36,880 nt of DNA from Calothrix anomala FACHB-343 (lineage in GTDB: Bacteria; Cyanobacteriota; Cyanobacteriia; Cyanobacteriales; Nostocaceae): positions 1-36,880 of the forward strand of contig NZ_JACJQG010000086.1 in NCBI RefSeq assembly GCF_014696435.1, given 5' to 3'. Position 1 is the first letter of the stretch. Each line of letters begins with the position of its first letter. The translations under genes were made by a program, and so were the position numbers. Shown here piece by piece: positions 317 to 31,292 of this stretch. The notes under the pieces are model-generated. The model saw nothing but the letters and a program-made list of their open reading frames with translations, was not told where the DNA came from and searched no databases.

Positions 317-1663
317 ATGTCTAATGACAACTTGGTTGATCTCATCCACTTATTCCCGATCCGCTTTATGCAAGCATCTGAATTTCAATTGATTGCCAAA
401 CTCAAATTCTTCTCAGGCTTCTATACGCCCGATCGCCAGGAAATTAGAGAATATCAACTCACCACAAAAGTAGGCATAGGTCGTGAAGCTCCTTGTACAA
501 TTTTGGCAGACTCCAAATATCTGGCAGTTTCTCGCTTGCATGTAGAAATTCGTCCGACTCAGACTGACACCACCCAATGGGAACTCTTTGATAACAACGC
601 TACCAATGGCACTTATCTCAACGGAAAACGTCTGCAAAGGGGAGAACATCGGATATTGCAATCGGGCGATCGTATTCAACTGAGCAAAGATGGGCCGGAA
701 TTTCTGTTTGAGTGCCAAGTCATTGCCGCAGATCTTCCAGTTGCTCCCACAGCAAACATCCCAATTCCAGAGACTCCATCCCAGCATGAGGTTGCTGCTT
801 CTGTTGCTGTCCAACCAACTGCGCCAACAACTTCCATCCCGCAAACTCAGAGTGAAAATACATCACCTACCTCTGTTCCGCCTCAGATCAGTCTCTGGGA
901 TTTAAAAACTCATATCGCCCCCTACATCCCCTCAGGACACTCAGATGTCATCCGGGCGCTGGCCTTTAGTCCCGATGCTCAAATGCTTGCCAGTAGTAGT
1001 GCTGATAAGACAATCAAGCTGTGGGATCTCAGCACTCAAAAAGAAATTTGGAGCGTTGCTGCACATAAGTTAGCTGTGAGCGCGATCGCCTTTAGCCCTG
1101 ATGGCCAAATGCTTGCCAGTGGTAGTGCTGATAAAGTTATTAAACTTTGGCACCTCAACACCCAAGAAGAACTGAAAACTTTGACTGGACATAGTATGGG
1201 AGTTGGGGCGATTGCATGGAGTCCCAATGCTCAAACTCTTGCCAGTGGAAGTGCTGATAAAACCATCAAGTTGTGGGACTGGCAAGTCGAGGAAGTACTA
1301 CATACACTTAATGGACATCGAATGGCAGTGACAGCTTTGGCGTTTAGCCCTGATGGTCAAACCCTTGCTAGCGGCAGTGCTGATAAGACTGTTAAACTAT
1401 GGTCTCCGGAGACGGGTGAGGAATTATCGACAATTTCAGTGGGGCGATCGGCGATCGCGGCTTTGATGTTTAGTCCCGATGGGCAAATGCTAGCGATCGC
1501 CAGTGAAGACAAAACGATTCGCCTCTGGGACTTAAAAACCGAGCAGGAAATTCGTGGTGTCTTTGAACCTTTATGGCAAACTGGTGAAGTTGCCATTAGC
1601 CCTGATGGTTGCTGGTTTGCTTGTAGCTGTGATGACAAGACGATTAGGCTTTGGTCATGGTAG
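317..1663 (+). CDS. FHA domain-WD40 repeat protein
   Basis: A 448-residue cytoplasmic scaffold-type protein. Residues about 45-130 form an FHA domain, a phosphothreonine-binding module, with the expected G55-R56, S72-R73-x-H75 and N97-G98-T99 plus N102-G103. A Pro/Thr/Gln-rich linker (about 137-190) leads to a WD40 propeller (about 192-448). Six clear repeats end in KTIKLWD-like strings, and an extra ISLWD strand at about 191 may help close the ring. No catalytic domain or signal peptide is visible. Its 3' end overlaps the facing FHA-membrane gene by 20 bases. Its natural partners would be proteins phosphorylated by the nearby Ser/Thr kinase, which is inference. The start lacks a clear Shine-Dalgarno; Met18 is an alternative and would keep the whole FHA domain. 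Confidence 0.9.
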   Translation: MSNDNLVDLIHLFPIRFMQASEFQLIAKLKFFSGFYTPDRQEIREYQLTTKVGIGREAPCTILADSKYLAVSRLHVEIRPTQTDTTQWELFDNNATNGTYLNGKRLQRGEHRILQSGDRIQLSKDGPEFLFECQVIAADLPVAPTANIPIPETPSQHEVAASVAVQPTAPTTSIPQTQSENTSPTSVPPQISLWDLKTHIAPYIPSGHSDVIRALAFSPDAQMLASSSADKTIKLWDLSTQKEIWSVAAHKLAVSAIAFSPDGQMLASGSADKVIKLWHLNTQEELKTLTGHSMGVGAIAWSPNAQTLASGSADKTIKLWDWQVEEVLHTLNGHRMAVTALAFSPDGQTLASGSADKTVKLWSPETGEELSTISVGRSAIAALMFSPDGQMLAIASEDKTIRLWDLKTEQEIRGVFEPLWQTGEVAISPDGCWFACSCDDKTIRLWSW

Positions 1664-3794
1664 GCGCGATCGCCAGGATTTCTCGCTTTAATTTTTCCAG
1701 GTCAGCTAAAGACTGTTCTAGGTTTTTTAAATGCAGTTTTTTACTATTCTCTATCTGTGCTTTGAGCTGAAGTTGCAACATTTCCAGTTCACTAATATGA
1801 GTTGTATACTGTTCGCTGACAGTTTCCAAAGTTGTCCAGAATCGCCGCTCCTCTGAATCTACTGAAGAACTCAGATACTGTGAGAGTTTCTTAGTCAAAT
1901 CTTCTGATAGAGATTGATAGTAGCTGAGTGTTCCTTTTTGTAACTTCTCAACTGCTTCCTCGACTTTCATCGCCCTTTCATGCTGATAAGCAAAAAATAC
2001 AGCTACACCGATGGGAGGAATCAAACCAGGAATTAAAAATTTTTTGATATTCCATTCTTTAGGTATAAAAGTACTTCCAACCAGCATTAGTGTAGAAACA
2101 GTTGAAATCATTTGACCTTTAAAGTTTTTCCCTAGATACCCTAATAAGCCAGGCTGTTTATATCGAACTTTACATTCAGTGGGTGCTACCGCTGAGATTT
2201 GTAAAACTGGTTGGATATTAATGCTCTGAGTAACCTCAAAAGTAGAACTGGGCAAAGCAACTTCAGGAATACAATTCAGTGTTTTGTAACTTCTCTGCCA
2301 TAAACCATTCAAGCCACCCTCACCATAGGATAAACAAATATGTTTCCATTGCGTTGTAGCCCATTCAGCAAGTTCTGCTTGAGCAAGACTCAAAGCTGCT
2401 GTATGCATATCATTCAGTGCAGGATTTTGCTCATTACCAAGTTGCAAACGCACTGTGCGATGTCCTCCTTGATCAAATACAGCAGGTTCCAAATGCTTAA
2501 CAAAATGCTCTACTTTTTGAGGCAGTGCATTTTGTCTAAATTTATCTAGTAAATGAGCTTCAGATTGACTAATTGCAGTTTTAATCTGCCTAAACTGTTC
2601 TTTCTCTCCTTCAACTTTCTTGATTGCCTTTTTAGTTTGCTCCTTTAGAGTAGCGGGTGCTAGGCTATTAAGTTGATCTTCGGCTTGGTGCGTTTCCTGT
2701 TTTAACTTTGCTTCCTGCTGCTTCAAGATGGCTTCAATTGCATCTACTAGCTTTACTAATTGGGTCATAATGCGCTGAAGCAACATTTCTTCTGCCTTCT
2801 CCTTGGCTAATGTTTCCAGTGTTTGAGAGAATTGTTCAAACTCAGGACGGGTATGAGGAAAAAGCACCGTTGCTTGAGGATTCGCAATCACAGGCTGTAA
2901 AGCGAGAGCGATTTGTTCAATTAGTGGGTAATAGGGCTGGCTTTTCACCCAAGCTTCCATTGTTCGCCAATGTGCCTGTATGACTTCCGGATTGCCAATT
3001 CCTGGTGTTGTAGCGATAATAAATAATTTAGCAATTTTTCCCTCACTCGCCTGCGCCATCAACTGTTTCGCCGCATTCGACAAGGGTTGACTCAGATCCG
3101 TGATTAAACAAAGAACATCACAGTTAAATAATTGACTTGTATCATCTTTAGCCGCAGCACGATCGCCAGAACTTTCAAATACCAGCGTTGCACTACCAGT
3201 TGCTCCAGAAACAGATCCCAAACAAATCTCGTCGCCCGCCTTCAGCTGATACCAATCCGGCAATTTTTGCACACTGCCATTGATGTAGGTGCCATTTCTA
3301 CTTCCCACATCCCGCACCTGCCAACCATCTTTCATTAAAGGTTGAATTTCTAAATGGCAACCACTGACTAAGCTTAGTTCATCCGGCAGTAGAATTTGAG
3401 CGATATCTGGGTTACGTCCGATAATTTGTGGCTTTGTACTTGTTAACTTATACCGGAATGACTGTTTTCCATTCAGGTGATCGCACTTCAAAGTTAAAAC
3501 TGCTGGTAAAACATGAAGCTGAGAAATTTCTGGCAAAGGACTGGTTTGGATTTGGTAAGCTTCTCGCACCAAAGAATTCATATTCAGAAGTTTTTGAAGT
3601 GATTGTGCTTGATTTACATCCTGACTAATAATTTGGACAACAAGACTCTTCGTTTGTAGTGCTTTCTCCAGGGTTGCTAAGGCGGAGCCAATCGGCAGAT
3701 AAGCTTCATCCTGAGAACCACGCTCAGACACAAACTGGCGAACGGCATGAATGCTCTTAGCTAATTTATCAGTTTTAGCGGAAATAACTTTCAT
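1644..3794 (-). CDS. FHA protein with coiled coils and a membrane hairpin
   Basis: A 716-residue protein. Residues about 118-206 are an FHA domain with G126-R127, S144-x-x-H147, N167-G168-T169 and N172-G173. Residues about 222-300 look like the later part of a P-loop GTPase fold (CDVLCLITDLSQP, then KLFIIATTPG), but no Walker A motif is present. A long coiled coil spans about 330-420. Two hydrophobic segments (about 561-578 and 586-603) form a tight hairpin, followed by a second coiled coil to residue 710. The layout of helices, membrane hairpin and helices recalls bacterial dynamin-like proteins, but without the GTP-binding loop this is only a resemblance. It is the last gene of the minus-strand train, 154 bases after the last coiled-coil gene. 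It probably anchors a phospho-dependent complex at a membrane. Confidence 0.85.
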   Translation of the reverse strand: MKVISAKTDKLAKSIHAVRQFVSERGSQDEAYLPIGSALATLEKALQTKSLVVQIISQDVNQAQSLQKLLNMNSLVREAYQIQTSPLPEISQLHVLPAVLTLKCDHLNGKQSFRYKLTSTKPQIIGRNPDIAQILLPDELSLVSGCHLEIQPLMKDGWQVRDVGSRNGTYINGSVQKLPDWYQLKAGDEICLGSVSGATGSATLVFESSGDRAAAKDDTSQLFNCDVLCLITDLSQPLSNAAKQLMAQASEGKIAKLFIIATTPGIGNPEVIQAHWRTMEAWVKSQPYYPLIEQIALALQPVIANPQATVLFPHTRPEFEQFSQTLETLAKEKAEEMLLQRIMTQLVKLVDAIEAILKQQEAKLKQETHQAEDQLNSLAPATLKEQTKKAIKKVEGEKEQFRQIKTAISQSEAHLLDKFRQNALPQKVEHFVKHLEPAVFDQGGHRTVRLQLGNEQNPALNDMHTAALSLAQAELAEWATTQWKHICLSYGEGGLNGLWQRSYKTLNCIPEVALPSSTFEVTQSINIQPVLQISAVAPTECKVRYKQPGLLGYLGKNFKGQMISTVSTLMLVGSTFIPKEWNIKKFLIPGLIPPIGVAVFFAYQHERAMKVEEAVEKLQKGTLSYYQSLSEDLTKKLSQYLSSSVDSEERRFWTTLETVSEQYTTHISELEMLQLQLKAQIENSKKLHLKNLEQSLADLEKLKREILAIAPTMTKA

Positions 3795-3892
3795 AGAATC
3801 TCACAAGTGATATCGTGTCTGATGAAAGACTTATCATTAAGAGTGCAAGGAGGATGAGGGAGATGAGGGGGACAAGGAGGACTTTTAACAAA

Positions 3893-3922
3893 TGACAACT
3901 GACTATTGACTATTGACCAATG
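3893..3922. repeat. Heptanucleotide tandem repeats (TGACNNN)
   Basis: Four consecutive heptamers read TGACAAC, TGACTAT, TGACTAT and TGACCAA, followed by TG. This is the short tandemly repeated repetitive (STRR) type described from heterocystous cyanobacteria. A purine-rich run (GGAGGATGAGGGAGATGAGG and more) precedes it. It fills the gap between the last coiled-coil gene and the FHA-membrane gene and could reduce co-transcription. Confidence 0.65.
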
Positions 3923-3948
3923 CCAGTATTTTCATTGCGCCGACCTAC

Positions 3949-4842
3949 TTAAAGCTGCAAAATATCTAAGATACCTTCAAAGACTCCAACCGCCGCGCTC
4001 AGTCCGACGTTAGTACTTTCTGCGCCAGCGACAAGAGTATCTTTAGTTGTGACAACAGTTGTTGTTGTGGTTTCAATCAAACCGCTTAAGCGTTCCATTA
4101 ACTGCGACAACTCGTGGGTATTCCCTAGCAATTCTTCAATGCTCTGGCTGTGAAACTGGGTAAGCTGCTCGATTGTTTCCTGTGCTGAGTTCCCAGATGT
4201 TTCGCCAAGTCCCTGTAATTTTTCTGTCAACTGCTGCACAGTTTCTTCGACTTGTTGCGTAAATTCATCAGCCTTAGCAGTGATTTCTGGCAAACATTCT
4301 GCCACGGAAGCAACTAACGCCTCAGCCTTTTGCTCAATCTCTGATTGGTGTTCTTCCATATTTTGGTTGAATTCATTCAGCAAATATTCCTCAGTTTGAG
4401 AAACAGTTTCTGCCAATTCTGCTTCCAGTTCCCCTGCTTTTTCTGTCAGGCTAGTAAATGCTGCTTCTGCCGCTTGGAAAGCTTGTTCAAGAGTAGGAGT
4501 GACCGACTCAATCTTACCTCCCAATTGGGCGATCGCTGATTTAGTTTCTTCTAATTCCTGATCCAGTTCTCCTTTGACTGTTTGGAGTTTATTGTGGAGT
4601 TGAGCGATCGCATCAGTTCCTTGCTTGGCCTGAGTTTCTAACTCTTGTTTGGCGCTAGTAATCTGTGTTAGCAATGCCTGTGCCCGCTCGCTGAGGCTCG
4701 TCCAGTTTGTTTCTAGTTGTTCAGCAATGCTCGTTAACTGTTCACGAGACTCATCCATGTGGGACTGAACTTGTTCACTCTGCTCTGTTAACGTTGTGAG
4801 TTTAGTAACTGTTTCGTTGGCGATCGTGCCCAAATCAGACAT
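3949..4842 (-). CDS. Acidic coiled-coil protein 4 of 4
   Basis: A 297-residue protein of almost continuous Glu/Gln/Thr/Ala-rich helix with heptad spacing. It has no signal peptide, no enzymatic motif and only one cysteine. A motif near residues 120-134 (AFQAAEAAFTSLTE) matches one in coiled-coil protein 2 (AEQAFTSFTE) and more weakly protein 1 (AQDAFSD), suggesting a common origin. The C-terminus turns apolar (about 276-297, ending GVFEGILDILQL). A run of Thr at about 257-265 could be kinase sites. A good ribosome-binding site (AGGAGAAAG) precedes the ATG. The family is not recognised; structural filament, tether or helical-bundle membrane protein are all possible. Confidence 0.8.
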   Translation of the reverse strand: MSDLGTIANETVTKLTTLTEQSEQVQSHMDESREQLTSIAEQLETNWTSLSERAQALLTQITSAKQELETQAKQGTDAIAQLHNKLQTVKGELDQELEETKSAIAQLGGKIESVTPTLEQAFQAAEAAFTSLTEKAGELEAELAETVSQTEEYLLNEFNQNMEEHQSEIEQKAEALVASVAECLPEITAKADEFTQQVEETVQQLTEKLQGLGETSGNSAQETIEQLTQFHSQSIEELLGNTHELSQLMERLSGLIETTTTTVVTTKDTLVAGAESTNVGLSAAVGVFEGILDILQL

Positions 4843-4912
4843 AATTTCTTTCTCCTATGAGGTATCTATACAAAACTTGGTGCAAAACATCATTTTTATT
4901 CACATACCTGCC

Positions 4913-5836
4913 TCAAAGCGATATTCCGACCTTTTCTGCTGCTGATTCCACTGCATCGATCGCAGATTTCAATGGCTCAAGAAATGTATCTAGTTGATCG
5001 AATAATGCCTCTAGTGGTTCACAATGAGATGCAGTGTCGTCTTTAGCTCCAGTGATTTGGTCAGACATACTCACAATCGCGTCACAAATATGTTGCACTG
5101 CCCCTTCTACTAGGGACTTGAGTTCACCATCTATTTGCTCTTGAGTTGCACTGATTAGCTCATCTATACCAGATTTAATGGTCTGTTCAGCAATTTCACT
5201 TAAGTGAGTTTCAAACTCACTTTGAGATGCTGTGAATTGCGTCACCATCTCATTTACTTTCTCCGAAACACCCTGTTTAGCTGATTCCACTTCATCCGTG
5301 AGTGATTCTATCTGCTCACTTGCGGTAGTATGTGCCGCTTGAATCGCTTCTTGCACCCCTTGAAGTCCCTGACTGACAGTTTCTTGAGCAGTGGTGAATT
5401 GTTCTTGCCCAGATTCAATTTTTTCCTGAATCTGCGTCAGTCCTGTCTGTGCTGCCTCCTGAGCTGTTTCAATTGCAGATTTACTTTCCTCAAGCTGAGT
5501 CTTGAACTCGCCCATTTTCTCCTGAACAGACTCAATCTCAGTGGTGAGTTCAGTCTTGGCTGCTTCAAACACTTCTTGGAGTGATTCTGTGCCAGTTTCC
5601 ACTTCAGCGATCGCAGATTCTGTTTCGCTTTGCAAACTTGTCGCCACCTGCTGTAGTTCCGCCAAAGCAGCAGTAATCTGTTCAATCAGCGCTACTACAT
5701 CTGTCTGCTGTTCCTGAAGTGATGTCTCTAACTCTTCGATAGCCGTTTGAATTTCTGTTGCACCTTCAACCAAATGGTTCAATTGCTCTGGAACTATAGC
5801 CGCCATTTGAGCCAGTGCAGCGTATGCATCAGTCAT
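4913..5836 (-). CDS. Acidic coiled-coil protein 3 of 4
   Basis: A 307-residue, strongly acidic, predominantly helical protein. It has many near-repeats of the form SAIETAQEAAQTGLTQIQEK between residues about 75 and 185, which look like internal duplications of an 11/22- or heptad-based helix. The C-terminal third changes character (about 215-307: EQTIKSGIDELISATQEQID, then two Cys) and ends in an amphipathic segment (FLEPLKSAIDAVESAAEKVG). The ribosome-binding site AAGGAG is strong. It sits 70 bases before protein 4 and 169 bases after protein 2, with a dispersed repeat in that gap. There is no recognisable enzymatic domain or signal peptide. The function is unknown. Confidence 0.8.
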   Translation of the reverse strand: MTDAYAALAQMAAIVPEQLNHLVEGATEIQTAIEELETSLQEQQTDVVALIEQITAALAELQQVATSLQSETESAIAEVETGTESLQEVFEAAKTELTTEIESVQEKMGEFKTQLEESKSAIETAQEAAQTGLTQIQEKIESGQEQFTTAQETVSQGLQGVQEAIQAAHTTASEQIESLTDEVESAKQGVSEKVNEMVTQFTASQSEFETHLSEIAEQTIKSGIDELISATQEQIDGELKSLVEGAVQHICDAIVSMSDQITGAKDDTASHCEPLEALFDQLDTFLEPLKSAIDAVESAAEKVGISL

Positions 5837-5919
5837 AGTCAGTTCTCCTTAAATTTGGTACACAGCAGTTTTCATATATATATTTAGACCACGCGCTGAT
5901 ATCTGTATTTCTTTCTGAC

Positions 5920-5992
5920 TTTGCGCGGCAGTTGCTTTAAGTCGGGGAACCCGCCCAACGCACTGCCTTGCCTTTGCGCCTTTGCGTGAGAT
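5920..5992. repeat. Dispersed palindromic repeat between coiled-coil genes
   Basis: This stretch holds an inverted pair GGCAGT (5927-5932) and ACTGCC (5962-5967) around a GTCGGGGAACCCG core. It is followed by CCTTTGCGCCTTTGCGTGAG, a phrase I recall as recurrent in intergenic DNA of Nostoc-type genomes. It is more GC-rich than the surrounding genes. It separates coiled-coil proteins 2 and 3 and may have inserted into a formerly tighter operon. Confidence 0.55.
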
Positions 5993-6005
5993 AAGATCGC
6001 TAAAA

Positions 6006-7010
6006 TCAGAAAATCCCCAGCGTCAGCACTTTCAGGGCTAGCTTAATGGCATCTATCGCCTCTTTAGCAATTAGCAGTTCTGGCAGAATTGGACTCAGTG
6101 CTGTAGTAATACCTGTACCCGTTACCATCAGAGTCATTGACTTTGCAACTTCTTGTGCCATTTCTGTAACCACATTATCTATCGCATCTTGAAAAGCAGT
6201 TTCTACTCCATCAATAAGTGTGTTTTCCAAATGGTCAATGACAGTACTCAAGATTTCAGATGCTTGCTCTTGAAGATGCTCACCTACTTCTTCTGCTTGA
6301 TTGCCAAAGTTGTCAAAAAGGTGGGTAAGTGCTTCTTCTAAGCTACTAAAACTTTCTATCATCTCATTAACTTGGTTTTGACTCAGTTCTTCACCAAATT
6401 CACTTAAGAGCGTTTGCACAGATGACTTACAAGTTTCTCCAATCTCACTGACTAGTTCTGTCCATTGTTCTTCTGTTTCCGAGTGCAGAGTCTCCATTTC
6501 TTGTTGAAGTTGTGCGATCGTCTCAGTGAAACTGGTAAATGCTTGTTCAGCACTATCCCATATTTGAGTCACTTCTGATTCTGTTTCTTCCAGAGTTGTT
6601 TTGACTACTTCTACAGCTGTTTTAATTTCTGCCAAATCACCATCGATTTCAGTTTGAGCTTCTTTGAACTCTGTCTCCAAAGCAGTTTGAGCCTCTGACA
6701 AAGATTGAGTAAATTCATCTACTTTGCCCTCAATCTCAGAAACAGCTTGCTGGAGTTCATCCAGGGCGGAAATGGCAGCTTCCTGACTGTTTTCTATCTC
6801 AGTTTCACCTGTTTCCAATGCCTGTGTTAAACCAGATAATGCAGCACTCACACGATCATCTACCTGATCCAGATGCTCATTATGCGACTCTAGCTGTTCG
6901 CAAGCTTCACTGATTTGGGTATAAGCCTGTTCCAGCATATGCAACAGCTGAGTCAGACTCTCGGCCGATTCCTCCGTTGATTGACGTAACTCTTCTTGTA
7001 CAACTGCCAT
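6006..7010 (-). CDS. Acidic coiled-coil protein 2 of 4, hydrophobic C-terminus
   Basis: A 334-residue protein. Residues 1-290 are Glu/Gln/Ser/Thr-rich coiled coil, with the shared motif AEQAFTSFTE at 154-163. The last 45 residues are different: a hydrophobic, Gly/Pro-containing segment (MTLMVTGTGITTALSPILPE), then IDAIKLALKVLTLGIF. That tail is the most membrane-like of the four and could insert into or lie on a bilayer. The start is supported by AAGGAG eight bases before the ATG. It lies 45 bases after coiled-coil protein 1, so the two are probably co-translated. It is the longest of the set. A role as the membrane-contacting member of a four-part assembly is speculation. Confidence 0.8.
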   Translation of the reverse strand: MAVVQEELRQSTEESAESLTQLLHMLEQAYTQISEACEQLESHNEHLDQVDDRVSAALSGLTQALETGETEIENSQEAAISALDELQQAVSEIEGKVDEFTQSLSEAQTALETEFKEAQTEIDGDLAEIKTAVEVVKTTLEETESEVTQIWDSAEQAFTSFTETIAQLQQEMETLHSETEEQWTELVSEIGETCKSSVQTLLSEFGEELSQNQVNEMIESFSSLEEALTHLFDNFGNQAEEVGEHLQEQASEILSTVIDHLENTLIDGVETAFQDAIDNVVTEMAQEVAKSMTLMVTGTGITTALSPILPELLIAKEAIDAIKLALKVLTLGIF

Positions 7011-7055
7011 ATTGATTTATCTCCTTGACTATAGGCTGAGAGCATTAAATCTGCG

Positions 7056-7955
7056 TTATCCCAACAAATCATGAACAGTATGCAAAACATCTAGGATTGG
7101 CTCAACTGTCTCCAAAACCTCACCAATACTGCCGATTACCTCCCCCAGTTCTCCATCTAGCAGTCCGTGAGACGATTCACCAACTTGACTCAAGCTAGAA
7201 AGCGCACCAGTCAGTCCTGCCATTGCTTCAGACAGTTGACTTTGTATATCCTCTGTATACTTATGCGTCAGTGTATCCAAGACTTCACTAGAGCTTGTAT
7301 CTAAAGTACTGACTAAGTTAGTGAAATTTTCAGTTTTACTGGTGGTCAAGGTTTCAAAGGCAGTCGTTACCGTTTCCAGTTGCTCTGTGAGTTCTGTTTC
7401 CAATGCCTCAAACTGTTCGAGTAACTCAGTCTTGCGATCGCTGAAGGCATCTTGAGCAGTATCAAAAACACCACGAAATTCCTCAATATTACTGGAGATA
7501 GTTTCACTGTGGCTACCAGCTTCAGTTTCTGTTTCCAGGATATGCTGAGTTAGTTGCTCCAAACCAGACTGAATCTCCTCAGCCTCAGTTTCAATTTCCG
7601 ACAACATTGATTCCGCATGACTCTTGAATTCATCTAACTGAGCTTTAAACTCACTGGAAATTGTATCTATCTGACTATCTAATTCGCTGATTTTTTGGTC
7701 TAATGTTTCCAACCCTTCTTTGGCAGTTTGCAACTCACTCTCCAAAGTTTGTTCAGCAGTATCTAGAACATTACCAAAAGCCTCTAACTTAGCTTGTGCA
7801 TCCTGCCCAGCAGAGGAAAGTGTGGAATTTAGAGATGTAATCAGTTGCTCAATGTGGGTGACACAATTGACTGCGCGATCGACCTCCACTGAAAGTGCCT
7901 GACTCTTAGCTTCATTTTTTTCAATTAAATCATTAATGGTACTGAGAGTTGACAT
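7056..7955 (-). CDS. Acidic coiled-coil protein 1 of 4
   Basis: A 299-residue coiled-coil protein, very rich in Glu, Thr, Ser and Leu, with one Cys near residue 31 and no signal peptide. A version of the shared motif is at 164-172 (DTAQDAFSD). The C-terminus (about 258-299) has regularly spaced apolar residues and Gly, ending VEPILDVLHTVHDLLG, comparable with the end of protein 4 (FEGILDILQL). AAGGTAA precedes the ATG. It begins only 22 bases after the VanY-type peptidase gene ends, so it is likely in the same transcript as the peptidase and kinase. No enzymatic domain is seen; the function is unknown. Confidence 0.8.
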   Translation of the reverse strand: MSTLSTINDLIEKNEAKSQALSVEVDRAVNCVTHIEQLITSLNSTLSSAGQDAQAKLEAFGNVLDTAEQTLESELQTAKEGLETLDQKISELDSQIDTISSEFKAQLDEFKSHAESMLSEIETEAEEIQSGLEQLTQHILETETEAGSHSETISSNIEEFRGVFDTAQDAFSDRKTELLEQFEALETELTEQLETVTTAFETLTTSKTENFTNLVSTLDTSSSEVLDTLTHKYTEDIQSQLSEAMAGLTGALSSLSQVGESSHGLLDGELGEVIGSIGEVLETVEPILDVLHTVHDLLG

Positions 7956-7977
7956 AATTACCTTGCGAGATAAATAT

Positions 7978-8790
7978 TTAAAGAACTTGTTTTACCTTTG
8001 CAAATACCATGCGAGCCTGCGAAGAACCTGTGAATCTCCAATGCCAAGGTTCATAGCTCACTCCTTGTGGGTTGTTTGGAGGAAAGGACATTTCAAAGCC
8101 AAATTCATTAGCATGTTGTCTTAGCCAATGAAAAGCCGCTGACTGCTGAAAATTTATTGTGATGTCTTGGTTTGGATAATAACCATCTGCCAAGTCAATT
8201 GCATAACCCGTATGATGTTCGCTATATCCTGGTGGGGCACTAATTTTAGCCGCCGCAGCTTCAGAGCCAGTTTTTCTTATTTGTGCTTGGAATAGTTTCT
8301 CCTGGTTAGCAATGGTGCGGAATCCCGATACTGGAATAATCCAAACTCCTTCATCCCTTGCTGCATAAATAAGTTTCATCAGAGCCAGAGCAGCTTCTGA
8401 ATGAAGTTTTTCATAACGCTGGTACTCATGTTTTGCATAGCTTGAGATCGTCATCAACTGACTTTGATCTGCTTCAGCATAAGGAAAATGACCTAGCTTA
8501 GGTGATGTATTCAGAGGTGGTTTTGATATTGTGGTTGAAATAGATGGGACAGGTAGTTTTGGATTCTGTTGTACTGTAAGCGCAACAGGATTTTGTGCAA
8601 TAGATTCATCAAGAGGCTCTTTTTGAGTCTTGGAGAAATTAGCTTTAACAGCTACTTCATCTAGTTTCTGAGCCTGTGGTGAAGCATATTGAGGTTGGGT
8701 TGTAAAGTACATCGATTGATACAGAATTGGTATCAGTGCAATAACAATACCTAAAAGTATCCATTTCCAGCATTTCCAAAATCTATTCAT
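7978..8790 (-). CDS. VanY-type D-alanyl-D-alanine carboxypeptidase, membrane-anchored
   Basis: A 270-residue protein with one N-terminal membrane segment (about 9-27), a Pro/Ser-rich linker (about 30-105) and a peptidase domain of the VanY/M15 family (about 110-265). The signature parts are all present: SGFR at 155-158, SEHHTGYAID at 190-199 giving zinc ligands H192 and D199, and EPWHWR at 247-252 giving the catalytic E247 and third ligand H250. Members cleave D-Ala-D-Ala or related bonds in peptidoglycan stem peptides on the outer face of the cytoplasmic membrane. It follows the kinase gene by 36 bases and precedes the coiled-coil genes by 22, which ties wall trimming to this gene train. Full catalytic residues suggest an active enzyme. 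Confidence 0.92.
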   Translation of the reverse strand: MNRFWKCWKWILLGIVIALIPILYQSMYFTTQPQYASPQAQKLDEVAVKANFSKTQKEPLDESIAQNPVALTVQQNPKLPVPSISTTISKPPLNTSPKLGHFPYAEADQSQLMTISSYAKHEYQRYEKLHSEAALALMKLIYAARDEGVWIIPVSGFRTIANQEKLFQAQIRKTGSEAAAAKISAPPGYSEHHTGYAIDLADGYYPNQDITINFQQSAAFHWLRQHANEFGFEMSFPPNNPQGVSYEPWHWRFTGSSQARMVFAKVKQVL

Positions 8791-8826
8791 AAGATGTCTT
8801 TCTCCAAAATGATTGTCAGCAAAGGT

Positions 8827-11004
8827 TTATTTGATCTCTTTTCGATCAGAAAGCTTCCACTTACCGTTTTCTAGGACAATCACAAATCGATATTTACTAG
8901 TATTTATCTCTGAATTCTTGAGTTTTTCATTCACGTAATAATCAATACCTTGTCTAATTTGAACTTCAATTTCAACTCGATCAGATTTGGAAGAGAAATA
9001 TCCTATGGGGTCAATTTTTTTTGTACCATAGCGATAGTAGGCTTTTTCTTGTTGCAGCCAATCTATTGTTCCTCCCGGCTTGGTAATGTCCTCATATATT
9101 TTTCCCGTTGTCAAACTTGCAGCAAGTTGGCGATCAAAAGGTGTCGCAAAAATTGAGGGTTTAGCTTCTAGCCACTTGTTAATCAGATCTAGAGTCTCTT
9201 GCTGTGAAAGTCCTTCAATAGGTGCTGTAACAGGTGGCTCTTTTGGCTTTGGAGGTGGGTCTGGTGTTTGTGAATTTCTAATTCCAATTTTTGCTAATTT
9301 AACAATGTTCGCTGGTTCTTGATTCCAGTACTCACTGCGTTCATCTACTGGTTTTCCCAAAAGTGTAATATTTTTTACTTCATTGATAGCACTTTGCCAT
9401 TGCCTTAAATTAAGAAGCACTTGTGCATTCTTGATTAGTTTATTGTTTGCTTCCCATTCATCGCTCCACTTCTTGGTTAGCTCTTGAATCTTCTGCGGAT
9501 TTTTTAATAGTTTTTGCGGAATTGACTTAGCAACAGCCACTGCTTCATTGAATTTTCCTTGCTTATATAGTTCTGTTGCTTGGTCAATGATTGCATCAGA
9601 CCATTGCTGAACAAGTATTGTTATTTGACTATAGGCAGAAGTATCAGAAGGTATTTTTTCTGCAATTGTCATTGCACCTTTAAAGTCTTTTTTGGCTGCT
9701 AGCTGCTTTGCTTGTCCGAGTTGACATTCAGCTAAAAGTTTATAAATTTCAGGATTAACTTTTGATGAATAATTTGTTTTATCGAGGCACTGATCATACT
9801 TTCCAGATTCAATCATTGCTTTGATGTTTGCTATCTGGTTTTGCTGTTGGTTATGCTGCCAGAAAAACCAACTCCCCCCTGTCAGCAAGCAACTTGCAAG
9901 CATTACTCCAATACCCAGCAGCAAATGATTTTGTTTTGATGAAGTATTAACGGAGGTTGACACTTCTTTGTGGGGCTGTGGGTAGACAACAAATCCTTGG
10001 GCAAATTCTGGAGATGATAGAGCTTGAGGATTTGCTAATTCCTCCAAATCTTCAGACTGTGCGACTGGAATAGAGGCTTGGTTGGTGGCGTTTTTAACTT
10101 GCTCTACTTCTACAGTTTGTTGATAACCATGACTGACTAATTGCCCAGAACTTGATGCTGCTGATTGTGAGGCAGTTATTTGATGCAATGCTTGTAGAGC
10201 CTCAGTAGCAGTCTCAAAACGTTCTTTGAAGTGATAGCGCACCATCTTTTTTAAGAAACTCGCTAAACCTGCACTGACTTCAGCCTGATCGCACCAGATT
10301 GTTTCTCCATCCTTGTCTTCTAGCAATTGAGATGGCAGTATTCCAGTTAATGCCTGTATCACAACCATACCCAGCGCATACAAATCACTACTTGGACGCG
10401 GCTTTCCTTTAGATTGCTCAGTCGGCATATATCCTGGAGTACCAATCCCAATTGTCTGACCAATCATTTGCGAATGAGAGGCTTGATGGATTTGGATTTG
10501 TTTTACTGCACCAAAATCAATCAAGCAGAGTTTACCATCTTGCCGTCGGATTAAATTATCTGGTTTAATATCACGGTGAATTACACCCTGACAATGAACT
10601 GTTTCTAGGATTGTCAGCACTTCTTTTAATAGTTGAATCACCTGTGATTCTGACCACCGTTCTCCTAACAGCATTTCGCTACTCAGAGGATGACCATCAA
10701 CAAAATCTTGAACTAGATAGAACTCTTGCTCTGTCTCGAAATATGCCAGCAGTTGCGGGATCTGATCGTGTACTCGCCCCAGCTTCTCCAGAATCTCTGC
10801 CTCACCATTGAACAAGCGTCTTGCTGTCACTAAGAAACTTGGATCGCTACTGGCAGGTTTTAGTTGTTTGACAACACACAGAGGATTATTAGGACGTTGC
10901 GTATCTTCTGCAATGTAAGTTTGTCCCATACCACCTATCCCCAGGGGACGGATAATTTTGTAGCGATCGTTTAGTAGTTGATCGGTCAAAATACAACTAG
11001 ACAT
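8827..11004 (-). CDS. Membrane Ser/Thr protein kinase with ARC6-like IMS domain
   Basis: A 725-residue protein. The kinase domain (about 14-275) has the Gly loop GIGGMGQTY (22-30), lysine K46, HRDIKPDN (143-150), DFG (163-165) and GTPGYMPTEQ (188-197), so it should be active. One membrane segment lies at about 360-383. A helical, TPR-like stretch (about 390-560) follows, then a Pro-rich linker. The C-terminal domain (about 595-725; INKWLEAKPSIFATPFD, then VLENGKWKLS) matches the IMS/DUF4101 domain known from the division protein ARC6 and several cyanobacterial kinases. The kinase side is cytoplasmic and the IMS side extracytoplasmic. Two FHA proteins lie downstream, and phosphothreonine made by this kinase is their plausible ligand. 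A GGAAG ribosome-binding site precedes the ATG. Confidence 0.93.
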   Translation of the reverse strand: MSSCILTDQLLNDRYKIIRPLGIGGMGQTYIAEDTQRPNNPLCVVKQLKPASSDPSFLVTARRLFNGEAEILEKLGRVHDQIPQLLAYFETEQEFYLVQDFVDGHPLSSEMLLGERWSESQVIQLLKEVLTILETVHCQGVIHRDIKPDNLIRRQDGKLCLIDFGAVKQIQIHQASHSQMIGQTIGIGTPGYMPTEQSKGKPRPSSDLYALGMVVIQALTGILPSQLLEDKDGETIWCDQAEVSAGLASFLKKMVRYHFKERFETATEALQALHQITASQSAASSSGQLVSHGYQQTVEVEQVKNATNQASIPVAQSEDLEELANPQALSSPEFAQGFVVYPQPHKEVSTSVNTSSKQNHLLLGIGVMLASCLLTGGSWFFWQHNQQQNQIANIKAMIESGKYDQCLDKTNYSSKVNPEIYKLLAECQLGQAKQLAAKKDFKGAMTIAEKIPSDTSAYSQITILVQQWSDAIIDQATELYKQGKFNEAVAVAKSIPQKLLKNPQKIQELTKKWSDEWEANNKLIKNAQVLLNLRQWQSAINEVKNITLLGKPVDERSEYWNQEPANIVKLAKIGIRNSQTPDPPPKPKEPPVTAPIEGLSQQETLDLINKWLEAKPSIFATPFDRQLAASLTTGKIYEDITKPGGTIDWLQQEKAYYRYGTKKIDPIGYFSSKSDRVEIEVQIRQGIDYYVNEKLKNSEINTSKYRFVIVLENGKWKLSDRKEIK

Positions 11005-11272
11005 TTTATTTCTTCCAAGTTTTTTGAGATGGTGTAATTAGAGTTTGTGCCAGGAAACAATATTCCTATTACATACTTTAATTAACTTTGTGAGCATTAT
11101 TTATATAGGTCACTAGAACACCGCTTCAGTAATAAAACACTAGACAGAAAAACTCAATTTTTATGTCTTGTAAAACAAAATATTCCTTCTGGTGAACCAA
11201 ATAAAACTGAATTTTTTGTGATAACTATGACTACTGAATTAGTGTTCTAGTTGAAATAAGGTATTGTGCAGG
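11005..11272. other. Intergenic region upstream of the kinase gene
   Basis: No gene is seen. Most of the stretch is taken by a 140-base segment with 20-base terminal inverted repeats (separate entry). A promoter for the kinase-peptidase-coiled-coil transcript would have to lie here, or the transcript reads through from the DUF3238 gene. No clear promoter boxes can be named. Confidence 0.4.
11112..11251. mobile_element. MITE-like element with 20-base terminal inverted repeats
   Basis: The left arm 11112-11131 reads ACTAGAACACCGCTTCAGTA. The right arm 11232-11251 is its reverse complement except for a 3-base mismatch block (CGC against TTA), so 17 of 20 positions pair. The 100 bases between are AT-rich and have no reading frame of note. 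Length, terminal repeats and intergenic position fit a miniature inverted-repeat transposable element. No target-site duplication is obvious, so a large stem-loop regulator is the alternative. Confidence 0.5.
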
Positions 11273-12010
11273 TTAAAACTTCACTACATCATTTTTTGCT
11301 GCGATCTCCATTGGAGGAAATAAAGAACTAGGAGTATCCCCTGTTGCCCGTGGATCGTGTGAATATACTAATGTGCCAGCACCTCCATCTGCCGTTACAT
11401 AAGCCTCATAAGCTGGGAAACCATCATGGTGACCAACAATAGAAACTTCGCGTGTAGCTGGATTAATTTTGAATGTTATGTTCAAATCAATGGCAGGTGC
11501 TCCCGTAAGCAGTGGATTTTTTGCAGCCGCCTTAAAATTAACGAGAACATTACTGCCTGATCGCTTTATTGTGCCATTAGTCAATTGGGCAGTAGAGGCT
11601 TTTCCTTCCTCCAAAATATTTCCTGTTGAGCAGTCAACTTTATGAGTAGTGCCAGTATCTTTCCAGTCAATCGTTTTGGTGAGTGTTGCAACATCAAACT
11701 CGATTTCTTGGTGTGTTCGTGAAGAAGCATGAATATCGTTGGACAGACCTCGATTATCTCCTGTAAAGCACCTACCTACAGGATCTTTAACCATAGCATC
11801 AGGAATAAAGGTATTGATCCACACCTTTATTGTTTTTGGTGTTGCCAATGCTATCTCCTTGTTAGATAAGTCCTTTATTTCTTGAGAAACTTCAGTCAAA
11901 ACTTCTGTTGTGCCTAACTGGTGATGACCTTGATTGGGTAAGTTCATTTCATTGAAAAATGGAGATATCAGTCCAAGTACAAAAGAAGCAGTTAGAGATG
12001 TCCAACTCAT
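11273..12010 (-). CDS. DUF3238-like protein with an MSWT leader
   Basis: A 245-residue protein. Residues about 60-240 resemble DUF3238 (for example WINTFIPDAMVKDPVGRCF, GDNRG, HHDGFPAYEAY), a family of unknown biochemical role; I recognise it by pattern, not by search. The first 24 residues form an apolar leader starting MSWT and lacking the basic residues of a Sec signal. It aligns without gaps with the leader of the neighbouring amidase-like protein (identical at positions 1-4, 12, 16-17 and 23-24). AAGGAA precedes the ATG. It lies 61 bases after that amidase gene on the same strand. The shared leader suggests both products go to the same place or through the same route. Confidence 0.75.
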   Translation of the reverse strand: MSWTSLTASFVLGLISPFFNEMNLPNQGHHQLGTTEVLTEVSQEIKDLSNKEIALATPKTIKVWINTFIPDAMVKDPVGRCFTGDNRGLSNDIHASSRTHQEIEFDVATLTKTIDWKDTGTTHKVDCSTGNILEEGKASTAQLTNGTIKRSGSNVLVNFKAAAKNPLLTGAPAIDLNITFKINPATREVSIVGHHDGFPAYEAYVTADGGAGTLVYSHDPRATGDTPSSLFPPMEIAAKNDVVKF

Positions 12011-12071
12011 ATTGATATTCCTTGGTATTCTTTAGGGTTTGAAGACAGACGTAGTTCTTTAATTTCAACCA

Positions 12072-12701
12072 TCAAAAAGCTGTGTAGAAACCAGCGAATT
12101 TACTGCGCGATCGCTTATTTTCAGTAATCTCACCACCCATACGACCACTATTCCCATCAATCGTTGTGATAGTATTACCCTCGACCTTGGCAACGATCGC
12201 ATGATGCTGATTCTTCGCAATGTAGGCAATGTCTCCTGGCTGAGGGTTAGAGGTTTGCTTGATTCCAGAAACACCTGAAATACCAACTCCCTGTCGCCAG
12301 TTACCAACATCTAACCCTGCTGACTTCACTGCCCACAACGAAAAGATGCCACACCAAGAAGGCAAACCAGCCTTTTGATACTTCACTACCTCATCTGGCC
12401 AAATACCTGGTGCCGCCGTATGGAAATATTCCAAGAGATTTTGCCAACCTTGTCGAGTCTTCTTCCCTGTTGTGTCCAACTCACCAGGCTTACCAGAATT
12501 TACTAAACCTATTTGCAATCTCGCGATTTCAATAATTTTCTCCCTGCGAGGATCGGTGGTGGCATCACCAAATGCTAAAGTCTTAGTTGCATGAGTTCCA
12601 TCGGCGGGAAATTGGATGAATGAAGTTGAAAGATTTCCGTCTTTTACAGCAGGTGAGAGTGGGGTAAGCGCTAGAGCTAATATAGTGGCAGTCCAACTCA
12701 T
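12072..12701 (-). CDS. CHAP/NlpC-like cysteine amidase with an MSWT leader
   Basis: A 209-residue protein. A short apolar leader (1-24) is followed by a papain-like amidase domain (about 50-209). C117 sits in PSWCGIF, H166/H167 in QHHAIV after a PGDIAYI strand, and D182/N184 in TIDGNSG. That order of Cys, then His, then a polar residue is typical of CHAP and related peptidoglycan amidases or endopeptidases. Substrate and cleavage site cannot be read from sequence. The ribosome-binding site GGAGG is strong, and this is probably the first gene of the transcript. With the VanY-type enzyme downstream it points to a cell-wall target, either the cell's own wall or that of another bacterium. Confidence 0.8.
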   Translation of the reverse strand: MSWTATILALALTPLSPAVKDGNLSTSFIQFPADGTHATKTLAFGDATTDPRREKIIEIARLQIGLVNSGKPGELDTTGKKTRQGWQNLLEYFHTAAPGIWPDEVVKYQKAGLPSWCGIFSLWAVKSAGLDVGNWRQGVGISGVSGIKQTSNPQPGDIAYIAKNQHHAIVAKVEGNTITTIDGNSGRMGGEITENKRSRSKFAGFYTAF

Positions 12702-13101: not shown

Positions 13102-14391
13102 CTAACTGCATTCACAGGGATACCGTCGCATCATCTGTTGCAAATCAACAGGCTCCCCCGAAGGTGTATAAACAACCCCCGCAGACATTGCTGCGACTAT
13201 CCTTTGGCGTTTTGCCCATTCATACCAAGCAATTACGTCCGCCGTCGCTGTGTTTTGAGGTTTCTTACCCTCTTTACAAGCTGTGATAAACACGCCAGTG
13301 GGTGACTTCACGGATTGCCATGTTTGGAGTGCTTCTTTGAGATATGCAAGTGCCCCGGCGACATTCACCCAATATTTCTTTATCACCCCCAAACATGGCT
13401 CTGGGTTAATCCGCAACCGCCGCAACTCGGTACAGACCTCAGCAATTTCGTGCTTACTAGGCTTATACGTACTTGAATCGACTTCAACTTCCGGCTCGGA
13501 AGATTCGTCATCATGAGGGTCTATCTCACTCTTTGAATTATCTTGTTCAATTTCATCAACAAAGTGAGTAATCTGGGGTTGCTCTGGTTTTGGAGCTTGG
13601 CGAACTGGTTCATATTCACTCTGTTTTACTCCTTCATCCTGTTTTTCCCCAACAGCAGTGTTGTTGTTTTTTAAAAGGTTTAAAGTAGTTTCAAATGTTG
13701 GCGGATTATTCGCACATCTTGTCGAAATATCTGGCACATCTGTGTCAATTTTTTCGCATCGTTGAGAATTGAGTAATTGTGTGAGCGTCACAGCAGGTAA
13801 TGCCAGTTGCTCATTTGTGCCTTGCCCAGAAGGACGGAAGTTACGACGGCGATACAAAAAGCGAAAATGGTGTTTGTCCTGTCGAGGAAGCTTCCGCCAT
13901 ACTTCCTCATTCCAGCCTGGGGGTATGAAGTCAGCAGATGGGAGTAGGAGGTTTTGGATTTGGGATTGCAGCTGGGCGAAATTTTGTTCTAGTTCTTGAA
14001 TTTTTTGTTGTAGCTGAGGAATTAACTTTATTGATTCTTTGGCAATCACTTCGCATTGCAGAAAGTATTTGCGGATCTGTCTACCTTGTTCACTCTTAGA
14101 CAGCATTCCCATTTCTTTAAAACATTCCAGCGTCAAATAAATCTTTTCTACTGGTCTACCTGCTTTGGAGTTTTCATCAGAAGTGATGAAAACCTCATAG
14201 GGCAGAGCTAAGAGCGATTGCTCTGGAAGTTGTACGAAATAATCGAAATTTCGTTCAAAGTATGAAGTTAACATTCTTTTAGCATTACTCTTAGTGCTAT
14301 ATCCAAGCACTGACCAAGCCCAGTCAAAATCTATAATCTGGTTACTGTTGTGCAACTGTTGAGCCAGTTCAAATGTAAATACTGGTGTCAT
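13102..14391 (-). CDS. AntA/KilA-like antirepressor-type DNA-binding protein
   Basis: A 429-residue protein. Residues about 18-118 resemble the AntA/AntB or KilA-N class of phage antirepressor domains as found in cyanobacteria: IDFDWAWSVLGYSTKSNAKR, then GRPVEKIYLTLECFKEMGML and GRQIRKYFLQCEVIAKE. A short coiled coil (about 123-150) follows. The middle is acidic and low in complexity (about 240-310). The end carries a helical domain (about 313-375, EVCTELRRLRINPEPCLGVI) and the DVIAWYEWAKRQR tail that is duplicated in the next gene. The role is probably regulation in a plasmid or prophage context, which is inference. It is divergent from the ParB-like gene, with 71 bases between the start codons. 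Confidence 0.75.
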   Translation of the reverse strand: MTPVFTFELAQQLHNSNQIIDFDWAWSVLGYSTKSNAKRMLTSYFERNFDYFVQLPEQSLLALPYEVFITSDENSKAGRPVEKIYLTLECFKEMGMLSKSEQGRQIRKYFLQCEVIAKESIKLIPQLQQKIQELEQNFAQLQSQIQNLLLPSADFIPPGWNEEVWRKLPRQDKHHFRFLYRRRNFRPSGQGTNEQLALPAVTLTQLLNSQRCEKIDTDVPDISTRCANNPPTFETTLNLLKNNNTAVGEKQDEGVKQSEYEPVRQAPKPEQPQITHFVDEIEQDNSKSEIDPHDDESSEPEVEVDSSTYKPSKHEIAEVCTELRRLRINPEPCLGVIKKYWVNVAGALAYLKEALQTWQSVKSPTGVFITACKEGKKPQNTATADVIAWYEWAKRQRIVAAMSAGVVYTPSGEPVDLQQMMRRYPCECS

Positions 14392-20033: not shown

Positions 20034-20048
20034 CTTTTAAGTTCCTAT

Positions 20049-22433: not shown

Positions 22434-22719
22434 ATTTCCTGCTACCTGTCAGTCTGTTGAGTAATGATTTACATTTTGACAGATAATACTTTCACATGTA
22501 AATTAGTCTTAATGTTTTTGTAACAAAATTAATTGTTGTAAAAAACTTTCTTTGTTTAAGTTATAATTATTAATCGAATATTATTTTGCTCTGTTTCAAA
22601 ATAGTGAATTGAACGCGATAATTATTGCTCAAACAAATGAGAACCTATAATCAATATAGGCTTTTATTAGTAGTTTGTGTAAGGTTAATTGATGTTAATC
22701 TAGAATTCAAGAATCAAGT
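22434..22719. other. Intergenic region upstream of the CHASE2-CHAT operon
   Basis: This 286-base AT-rich stretch contains no gene. It should hold the promoter of the CHASE2-CHAT operon (minus strand). On the plus strand there is a good sigma-70-like pair, TTGACA at 22476-22481 and TAAATT at 22499-22504 with 17 bases between, although no plus-strand gene follows. A short hairpin lies near the end of TPR-CHAT B. Confidence 0.4.
22644..22660 (-). terminator. Short hairpin after TPR-CHAT B
   Basis: CCTATA and TATAGG pair around a 5-base loop, about 60 bases beyond the TPR-CHAT B stop codon. The T-tract is weak on the minus strand and better on the plus strand (CTTTTATT). The stem is AT-rich, so this is at most a weak terminator. 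Confidence 0.3.
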
Positions 22720-26767: not shown

Positions 26768-26834
26768 GAGTATCTCCATAGATGATAGTAGTATTGCAAC
26801 AGCACACTTTGTAGAGTGATTGCTTTGCTAGTGG

Positions 26835-26867
26835 TATATCTGGATGAGACTTAGAAAAATATGCAGC
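26835..26867 (-). promoter_or_regulatory. Shared 33-base upstream motif, copy 1
   Basis: On the minus strand the motif starts GCTGCATATTT and ends TCATCCAGATATA. It matches the copy at 27638-27670 at 27 of 33 positions. Each copy lies ahead of a small secreted-protein gene on the same strand. It may be a promoter or operator, or a small repeat. Confidence 0.5.
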
Positions 26868-27044
26868 GATTAATAGAGAAAAATAGACGAATGCTCAAAA
26901 TGACCGTTTGCTGCAAAATAGTCGAGGTAAGAGTAAAGCGATAGCATCTCAAGTATGGTGAATTATGAAGTGGGTTAGCCGGAGGCTTTGGCGGAGCTAT
27001 CGCTCTTGGATAATAGGTTAGCGAAGCTTACTAAATCACCTATT

Positions 27045-27670: not shown

Positions 27671-27690
27671 TTGCAGAAATAAACAATTAA

Positions 27691-31274: not shown

Positions 31275-31292
31275 GATTTTCCTCTCCTTGAA

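Follow-up and report, generated by a model that had tools for sequence, protein, structure and literature searches.

A cyanobacterial system of four ordered coiled-coil genes and an FHA domain-containing membrane protein, with a possible role in effector handling

Four acidic coiled-coil genes in the order CC4-CC3-CC2-CC1, together with the gene for an FHA domain-containing protein, FHA-H, constitute a conserved cyanobacterial gene system that we could not match to any described one. The system was studied from a 36,880-nucleotide stretch of Calothrix anomala FACHB-343 DNA, referred to in its entirety as the window. Our preferred reading, to which we assign a probability of roughly 0.4, is that the quartet and FHA-H, usually accompanied by a kinase and an FHA-WD40 protein, form one functional unit, namely a membrane-anchored, kinase- and FHA-regulated apparatus for handling or delivering effectors; that it delivers them is our inference. 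The genes of the locus in the window are:

317..1663, + strand: FHA-WD40 protein, 448 aa, putative second phosphothreonine reader (WD40 in the Pfam scan, FHA by profile)
1644..3794, - strand: FHA-H, 716 aa, putative pseudo-dynamin (Pfam FHA domain, profile alignment to dynamin-like proteins)
3949..4842, - strand: CC1, 297 aa, acidic long-helix protein, last gene of the quartet
4913..5836, - strand: CC2, 307 aa
5837..6005, - strand: CC3-CC2 intergenic stretch, 169 bp, empty in the window, cargo-gene site in several other genomes
6006..7010, - strand: CC3, 334 aa, hydrophobic C-terminus
7056..7955, - strand: CC4, 299 aa, first gene of the quartet
7978..8790, - strand: VanY-type peptidase with an N-terminal membrane segment, local addition (1/29 genomes)
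8827..11004, - strand: membrane Ser/Thr kinase, 725 aa, with a C-terminal ARC6-like IMS domain (homologue in 24/29 genomes)
11273..12010, - strand: DUF3238 protein, local addition (1/29 genomes)
12072..12701, - strand: CHAP-domain amidase-like protein, local addition (1/29 genomes)

The initial annotation had described a nine-gene minus-strand train with mostly short gaps, and this description holds: all nine ORFs were confirmed across 1644..12701, with intergenic gaps, in coordinate order from FHA-H to the CHAP gene, of 154, 70, 169, 45, 22, 36, 268 and 61 bp. The FHA-WD40 gene converges on FHA-H tail to tail, and their 3' ends overlap by 20 bp. A scan for promoters and terminators was uninformative, with counts below those of shuffled sequences (15 vs 23.4; 6 vs 11.3). 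The domains that had been called from visible motifs were likewise recovered by profiles: CHAP (E 3e-7), DUF3238 (E 1e-19), VanY (E 1e-41), Pkinase (E 1e-34) followed by the ARC6-like IMS domain (E 2e-17), the FHA domain of FHA-H (E 1.4e-11), and the WD40 (E 1e-69) and FHA (E 6e-22) domains of the FHA-WD40 protein. The window kinase has HRDIKPDN and DFG motifs and a transmembrane segment at about residue 360, and the FHA-WD40 protein reaches 25.7 bits against the TagH model, whose cut-off is 120.

Among 386 genomes of the phylum, 8 contain a match to FHA-H that spans most of the protein and 8 a match to CC4, and these are the same 8 genomes. Homologues of FHA-H were then recovered in 21/21 further quartet genomes and in 12/12 more, so that the quartet and FHA-H co-occur beyond chance in 41 of 41 quartet genomes, which carry 17 family labels. 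The trees of the CC proteins and of FHA-H have congruent distances (Mantel r 0.91, reached in 0 of 2000 permutations). In three genomes (G109, G119 and G151) FHA-H and CC4 lie far apart or on different contigs, and in two genomes of the same genus as the window CC3 is absent and the FHA matches are lone ones. A separate profile scan of genome contigs for FHA-H proved insensitive, missing the other genomes that the phylum-wide search had found; among the 80 loci that it kept, one holds a full-length relative (L018, Myxacorys californica), and the others match FHA-H across the FHA region or slightly beyond it.

The four coiled-coil genes are an ordered quartet, with the order CC4-CC3-CC2-CC1 kept on one strand in 37 of the 40 stretches that contain all four. 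Duplication has also affected the quartet as a whole: a second quartet in unchanged order is present in four genomes, and the first three genes of such a copy in two. The copies CC5, CC6, CC7 and CC8 score best against CC4 (117, reversed profile 45), CC3 (139, 53), CC2 (159, 37) and CC1 (99, 45), respectively. A common origin of CC1-CC4 themselves is suggested by mutual hhalign scores of 101.5-127.6, the support being only moderate because reversed controls reach 60.8-85.3. Among the best 25 Pfam matches of each coiled-coil protein, all fall below the curated cut-off with three exceptions, PF04513 on CC4 (39.0 bits, cut-off 38), DUF1664 on CC2 (34.9, cut-off 34.6) and Syntaxin on CC3 (27.3, cut-off 26.7), which we read as composition. 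A model of CC1 from a six-row alignment comprises three long helices at low confidence (pLDDT 62.6); its top Foldseek matches, chains of the ciliary central pair, were set aside as not meaningful (TM about 0.3, rmsd 33-46), and on this low-confidence model the rows for Atg17, the ULK1 complex, TBK1 and F-BAR are near background.

FHA-H comprises a helical N-terminus, the FHA domain (Pfam 124-193), a half resembling the G3-G4 part of a G domain (about 219-286), long helices and a hydrophobic segment at about 583. It shares with dynamin-like proteins (Dynamin_N, PF00350) the profile similarity to the G3-G4 half, the long helices and the late hydrophobic segments, and differs from them in its missing P-loop (GxxxxGK[ST] in 0/31 homologues) and in the placement of an FHA domain within the G domain. 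It looks like a dynamin-like protein devoid of the P-loop, with the FHA domain inserted in a degenerate G domain, and its use of GTP is unlikely. In local hhalign comparisons with a pooled profile of eight dynamin-like proteins, FHA-H attained Prob 88.8 and score 59.5; the controls scored lower, with a maximum of 22.5 among 20 shuffles, 21.2 for the reversed control and a maximum of 29.2 among 10 other families. The FHA-containing subset of homologues reached Prob 92.2. The match needs the pooled profile, as sub-profiles of one to three dynamins score 5.2-21.0 (global mode), single dynamins give Prob of at most 3.6, and the five FHA-less homologues alone give Prob 7.9. Two late hydrophobic segments are present in 26 of 32 FHA-H rows (with G368 as two pieces), and one in the window protein. 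A model from a two-row alignment (pLDDT 39) is unusable for assessing a stalk or membrane tip. Three quartet genomes (G506, G549 and G674) have a nearby homologue devoid of the FHA domain. No match to FHA-H was obtained in plasmids by tblastn or in viral contigs by profile scan.

Gene neighbours were counted on the fetched stretches of 29 genomes. The kinase has a homologue there in 24 genomes, in 19 of the 29 with HRD and DFG by a simple pattern, and was not found at 100 bits in the remaining five; in G109, G119, G151 and G520 the sole homologue in the stretch is without HRD and DFG. A counterpart of FHA-WD40 is present in 20/29. The expectation, derived from the initial annotation, that the coiled-coil genes would co-occur in other cyanobacteria with the kinase, VanY-type and FHA genes was borne out for FHA-H and largely for the kinase and FHA-WD40. 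It did not hold for the wall enzymes, as single-sequence profiles of VanY, DUF3238 and CHAP matched the fetched stretches of 1/29, which is the window itself. The core includes neither a general ATPase nor a channel, which counts against the preferred reading. Wza/Wzc-like pairs lie beside CC1 in five genomes, as incidental finds rather than a systematic count.

In 11 of the 41 quartet genomes, genes that interrupt or immediately flank the quartet, in several of them in the CC3-CC2 gap, encode candidate cargo proteins with a common short helical leader and variable C-termini, some with a Pro-rich linker or a HINT domain. The leader occurs in 0/39 sampled genomes lacking the quartet and has no match away from quartet clusters. 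A Pfam domain was detected in 8 of 18 leader proteins, toxin- or pretoxin-named in 5/18; the C-terminal domains include Ntox24, Ntox28, Ntox44 (two), PT-HINT (two), Amidase_6 and C39. In G185 a SUKH immunity gene adjoins the cargo gene, and three other cargo neighbours (L259 7439-8206, L260 3673-4200 and L196 4800-5282) gave no Pfam match. Against the CC1 profile the leader scores 30.3, with 30 shuffles at or below 14.4 and the other CC profiles at or below 19.2; part of this match is that of an amphipathic helix, because the reversed leader scores 20.4. The leader search of the window genome at E 0.001 returned no match, and since 30/41 quartet genomes, this one included, are without leader-bearing cargo, the cargo may be an acquired use.

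Under the preferred reading, an envelope signal would be received by the outer domain of the kinase, or elsewhere by an ionotropic-receptor-like channel, and would turn the kinase on. The active kinase would then phosphorylate threonines on itself, on the quartet or on both. FHA-H, as a membrane-held protein incapable of the usual GTP binding, would bind these phosphothreonines together with FHA-WD40, whereupon a CC1-CC4 hetero-oligomer might be assembled or released at the membrane. This assembly would hold and deploy effectors docking by the short helix, whose closest resemblance among the coiled-coil proteins is to the CC1 N-terminus. For the window, different proteins would have to serve as effectors, with VanY, CHAP and DUF3238 as possible candidates, unless there are none. 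A more specific proposal, which we regard as less likely than not, is that of an undescribed cyanobacterial effector delivery in which a kinase/FHA-gated, pseudo-dynamin-anchored hetero-oligomer of the four CC proteins loads polymorphic toxins via the CC1-like leader, coupled in some lineages to a Wza/Wzc-like envelope channel.

The model put forward by the initial annotation, in which the kinase phosphorylates Thr-rich coiled-coil proteins and these, via FHA proteins, control wall cutting by VanY and CHAP, draws on the single short-gap train in the window and on the intact kinase and FHA motifs. However, VanY, DUF3238 and CHAP are confined to the window among the fetched stretches of the 29 genomes and are not among the labels of a set of 13 stretches, and elsewhere the core has trypsin-like, channel or toxin-like genes near it, or none. 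Therefore wall cutting is not a shared function of the system, wall control was rejected as such, and the model as a whole appears very improbable. The description as Thr-rich also proved weak: Thr makes up 7-10% of the coiled-coil proteins, and among columns at least 80% conserved it accounts for 5/37 in CC1, 1/38 in CC3, 0/46 in CC2 and 0/40 in CC4, for which reason Thr enrichment was discarded as evidence for phospho-targets. A chance neighbourhood without any functional unit would accommodate the 10/29 genomes in which no CC gene lies within 6 kb of FHA-H on one and the same stretch, but is scarcely credible in view of the co-occurrence throughout the quartet genomes, the kept gene order and the congruent trees.

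It is quite possible, if a less favored view, that the genes specify a kinase-controlled membrane scaffold or cytoskeleton, with the quartet as a filament or coat, FHA-H as its anchor and phosphothreonine as the switch, and with toxin genes as later riders landing there. An intracellular conflict or defence role, wherein a triggered kinase releases effectors that act on the membrane, wall or nucleic acid of the producing cell, as in abortive infection, seems improbable to us. It would fit the patchy distribution, including the absence from two genomes of the same genus, and the variable neighbours, such as trypsin-like proteases (11/29) and channels (13/29). The window kinase also strongly matches the PD-T4-6 defence-kinase models of PADLOC (best E 1.5e-95, 318 bits, residues 7-285), but this match, which has no stated cut-off, is limited to the kinase domain, and numerous kinase models, of PD-T4-6 and of other kinds, match as well, so that it may be ordinary kinase similarity. 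Against defence also stand the ZorA, JetC and LmuB matches of the coiled-coil proteins in PADLOC, which look like composition, the lack of a PADLOC match for FHA-H, and CC3, for which tblastn gave no match in plasmid or phage records. Also counting against it are the PT-HINT, Ntox and SUKH genes, which are typical of secreted polymorphic toxins.

Among known systems, the threonine phosphorylation pathway of the T6SS includes the PpkA kinase and Fha1, and the present locus is similar in combining a Ser/Thr kinase and an FHA protein near effector-related genes. To our knowledge, neither the CC quartet nor a pseudo-dynamin is a part of the T6SS, and the neighbours in a general Pfam scan, rather than a dedicated T6SS search, include none named as a T6SS part. 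The cargo recalls polymorphic toxin systems in its shared N-terminal leader, variable Ntox or amidase C-terminus and one SUKH gene; the trafficking modes named for these in the available text of PMC3482391 (T2SS, T5SS, T6SS, PVC, T7SS, TcdB/TcaC, PrsW and phage packaging) include none with a kinase, FHA protein and coiled-coil quartet. By description, the CC proteins resemble cyanobacterial coiled-coil-rich filament proteins in being long, coiled-coil and free of enzymatic domains; a difference is that the available portion of PMC7766704 has no mention of FHA. The vWA-MoxR/VMAP ternary conflict systems, as far as the accessible part of PMC7159879 describes them, also occur in cyanobacteria, among others, with trypsin-like and FHA accessory modules, but FHA is merely sporadic there. 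No vWA, MoxR or VMAP families are among the Pfam matches listed for the scanned core proteins.

If the preferred reading is true, the system would represent a new bacterial means by which phosphothreonine signals act on a protein assembly bound to the membrane, in which a dynamin fold has been turned from a GTPase into a phospho-reader. The toxin link, if true, would add one more trafficking mode for polymorphic toxins. Even without it, an ordered four-gene coiled-coil unit that is accompanied by one membrane protein in all 41 quartet genomes is a well-defined assembly that is directly testable.

The four acidic coiled-coil genes CC1 to CC4 (the quartet) and the gene for FHA-H, the FHA membrane-hairpin protein, constitute a conserved unit. 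The window corresponds to contig C130 in a 9.24-Mb genome assembled into 144 contigs. ORFs and a domain scan bore out the initial annotation, which had described nine minus-strand genes (1644-12701) faced by an FHA-WD40 gene. The principal features are:

317..1663, plus strand: FHA-WD40, second FHA protein, 448 aa
1644..3794, minus strand: FHA-H, 716 aa
3949-7955, minus strand: CC1 to CC4, numbered from 3949 to 7955 and transcribed as CC4-CC3-CC2-CC1, then FHA-H
8827..11004, minus strand: membrane Ser/Thr kinase
13102-14391: upstream neighbour of the train, by eye resembling phage antirepressor-type proteins
14463-15293: ParB-like ORF (by eye), just upstream of the train
28370-29650: DUF4407 protein, E 1.8e-43
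19212-36271: DUF928/CHAT-CHASE2/CHAT-TPR/DUF1822/sigma-region-4-like gene group, 7-24 kb from the train

Members of the last group also accompany the quartet in stretches L013 (G368), L176 (G474), L185 (G545) and L189 (G506), and DUF1822 or sigma-like members adjoin CC genes in several relatives.

Typical CC proteins are ~295-335 aa long, with 22-23% D+E, 4-7% K+R and nearly no Pro, Cys or Trp; their mean net charge is -47 to -64 and their helical periodicity 3.56-3.58 residues. In the first genomes the orthologues align with the window proteins over their full length, at 25-35% identity. Profiles of CC1-CC4 score 101.5-127.6 against each other (60.8-85.3 when reversed), and sequence comparison suggests, short of proof, a common origin of the four. 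A stronger sign that the quartet is one unit comes from a second quartet, which follows the first, its genes in unchanged order, in G151, G187, G475 and G593 (in G187 with other genes between) and is represented by its first three members in G109 and G119; in profile comparison each member best matches the first-quartet counterpart at its own position. The CC3-like member of the second quartet bears a ~200-residue N-terminal extension that begins with a hydrophobic segment.

The CC4 profile matched 8 of 386 phylum genomes, under four family labels, and these are identical to the 8 matched by the window FHA-H protein at E 1e-20. A six-row FHA-H profile at 1e-15 matched 85 of the 386: these 8 along the greater part of the protein, G070 by a homologue lacking the FHA domain, and 76 in the FHA region, the alignment going slightly past it in G145 and G326. 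At order level the CC3 profile matched 28 genomes out of 388, at class level 14 out of 232. As the samples overlap, this gives 41 distinct quartet genomes under 17 family labels, a number that is not one of independent events since related genomes are counted separately. An FHA-H homologue is present in all 41 (the first 8, then 21/21, then 12/12), the search in the order and class samples being restricted to quartet genomes and two others. This co-occurrence is not merely linkage, because in G109, G119 and G151 quartet and FHA-H are widely separated on the chromosome or lie on different contigs. CC and FHA-H tree distances correlate across 29 genomes (r 0.91; 0 of 2000 permutations), a value to which shared ancestry contributes. 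Profile searches of two genomes of the window's genus found CC3 in neither, and of FHA-H nothing beyond lone FHA matches; the distribution is therefore patchy.

Around the matches, stretches no longer than 20 kb were fetched, and mechanically called ORFs were labelled with profiles built from orthologues. The order CC4-CC3-CC2-CC1 on one strand is kept in 37 of the 40 stretches holding all four genes, the exceptions (G506, G549 and one copy in G545) being rearranged or duplicated. In a detailed set of 29 genomes (28 of the order plus G185), counts refer to fetched stretches, and those of partner genes, some of which adjoin a distant FHA-H rather than the quartet, are minimum values wherever a stretch or contig breaks off. 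FHA-H is found in all 29, with its FHA domain in 27; in 19 it shares a stretch with a CC gene no more than 6 kb away. In 20 genomes there is a further FHA protein, always bearing one or more WD40-like motifs. A kinase homologue of at least 100 bits occurs in 24, and in 19 of these genomes it shows the HRD together with the DFG pattern. Trypsin-like proteases (11/29), COP23 (10/29) and an ionotropic-receptor-like channel (13/29) are also present; VanY, DUF3238 and CHAP genes are seen in the window alone (1/29). The channel, a periplasmic-binding plus ion-channel protein often divergent from CC4, and pseudokinase-like homologues (no HRD and DFG patterns) adjoining the quartet in G109, G119, G151 and G520 are located as follows:

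L140 8650-9747; L015 15217-16332: ionotropic glutamate receptor-like protein (profile matches in 11 other genomes)
L142 12366-14099; L141 5931-7667; L140 6904-8622; L179 5948-7618: pseudokinase-like homologues

In G187, G475 and G593 the fetched stretches hold a pseudokinase-like homologue plus an HRD-bearing kinase.

A PDB profile search with FHA-H recovered FHA-containing chains, the best 60 of 67 matches showing nothing else below E 0.017. With FHA columns removed, a 31-sequence FHA-H family profile was compared with one built from 8 dynamin-like proteins that bear a P-loop and are encoded in the window genome and relatives. The local alignment (score 59.5, Prob 88.8) covers window residues ~219-286, corresponding to the G3-G4 half of the G domain; 20 block-shuffled dynamin profiles reached at most 22.5, the reversed profile 21.2 and ten other families at most 29.2. 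The global alignment spans 512 columns from the N-terminal helix to the C-terminal helices (score 51.2; no control exceeded 17.4, whether the reversed profile, the 8 shuffled ones or the 9 from other families). Counting against the resemblance are the comparisons with single dynamins (Prob 3.6 or less), with sub-profiles of 1-3 dynamins (scores 5.2-21.0) and of five FHA-less homologues alone (weak, Prob 7.9). None of the 31 members has a P-loop. By these alignments FHA-H appears to resemble a dynamin without the P-loop, and its FHA domain would stand at the place of the dynamin switch regions. A simple FHA core-residue pattern is present in 23 of the 31 rows; seven of the others lack the domain and one starts inside it. 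FHA-less homologues (536-549 aa) exist outside quartet loci, the one scanned having no Pfam match:

L145 8145-9773; L212 4484-6118; L213 5103-6752; L214 4969-6579; L215 4630-6255: FHA-less FHA-H homologues

That of G070, which has no CC3, by eye adjoins an Era-like GTPase gene. The window genome carries tandem classical dynamin-like genes with P-loops (G000:C68:15634-18857), whose homologues are also present in quartet-less G640 of the same genus.

In genomes of several families, genes sharing a helical leader of ~28 residues lie in the quartet. Their commonest place is the CC3-CC2 gap; in G506 and G549 they are found both between paralogues of CC4 and CC1 and after them, and in G679 also directly after CC1. 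All 18 leader proteins were scanned, and 8 have a Pfam domain:

Ntox24 with PT-HINT; PT-HINT; Ntox28; Ntox44 (twice); Peptidase_C39; Amidase_6; DUF6973

A SUKH gene adjoins a leader-bearing gene in G185. The leader-bearing protein at L262 1635-2387 has a C-terminus that is GIY-YIG nuclease-like by eye, with no Pfam match at E 0.01. Across 80 whole genomes the leader profile matched 11 of the 41 with a quartet and none of the 39 without, the latter having been picked by us from the negatives of the phylum CC4 and order CC3 searches. All 18 matches are seeds; what the scan adds is the absence of any further match in those 80 genomes, the window genome included. The leader scores 30.3 (Prob 63.7) against the CC1 N-terminus and at most 19.2 against six other CC profiles (30 leader shuffles at most 14.4, reversed leader 20.4), a likeness that is suggestive only. 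Genes that we take to be Wza-like (Poly_export/SLBB) and Wzc-like (AAA_31/CbiA) adjoin CC1 in G185, G694, G695, G777 and G808, the Wzc-like match in G777 being below cut-off.

Among the papers listed by full-text literature searches, which covered a minority of subscription papers, none describes this gene set, judging by titles and the starts of abstracts. The threonine phosphorylation pathway of type VI secretion, which offers a comparison, has the kinase PpkA and the FHA protein Fha1. The combination of a kinase that has an outer domain, two FHA readers, four obligate helical partners and a putative pseudo-dynamin bound to the membrane suggests a switch in which phosphothreonine would assemble or release a coiled-coil complex at the membrane. 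The cargo, seen in roughly one genome in four, suggests that the complex may handle effectors. The main rival, which we consider somewhat less likely, is a phospho-controlled scaffold on which the toxins would be riders. Neither the weak dynamin sub-profiles nor a strong match of the kinase to PD-T4-6 alters this weighting. Taken whole, the reading that we tentatively prefer, at a probability of roughly 0.4, is that these genes would encode a phosphothreonine-switched membrane coiled-coil complex that handles effectors.
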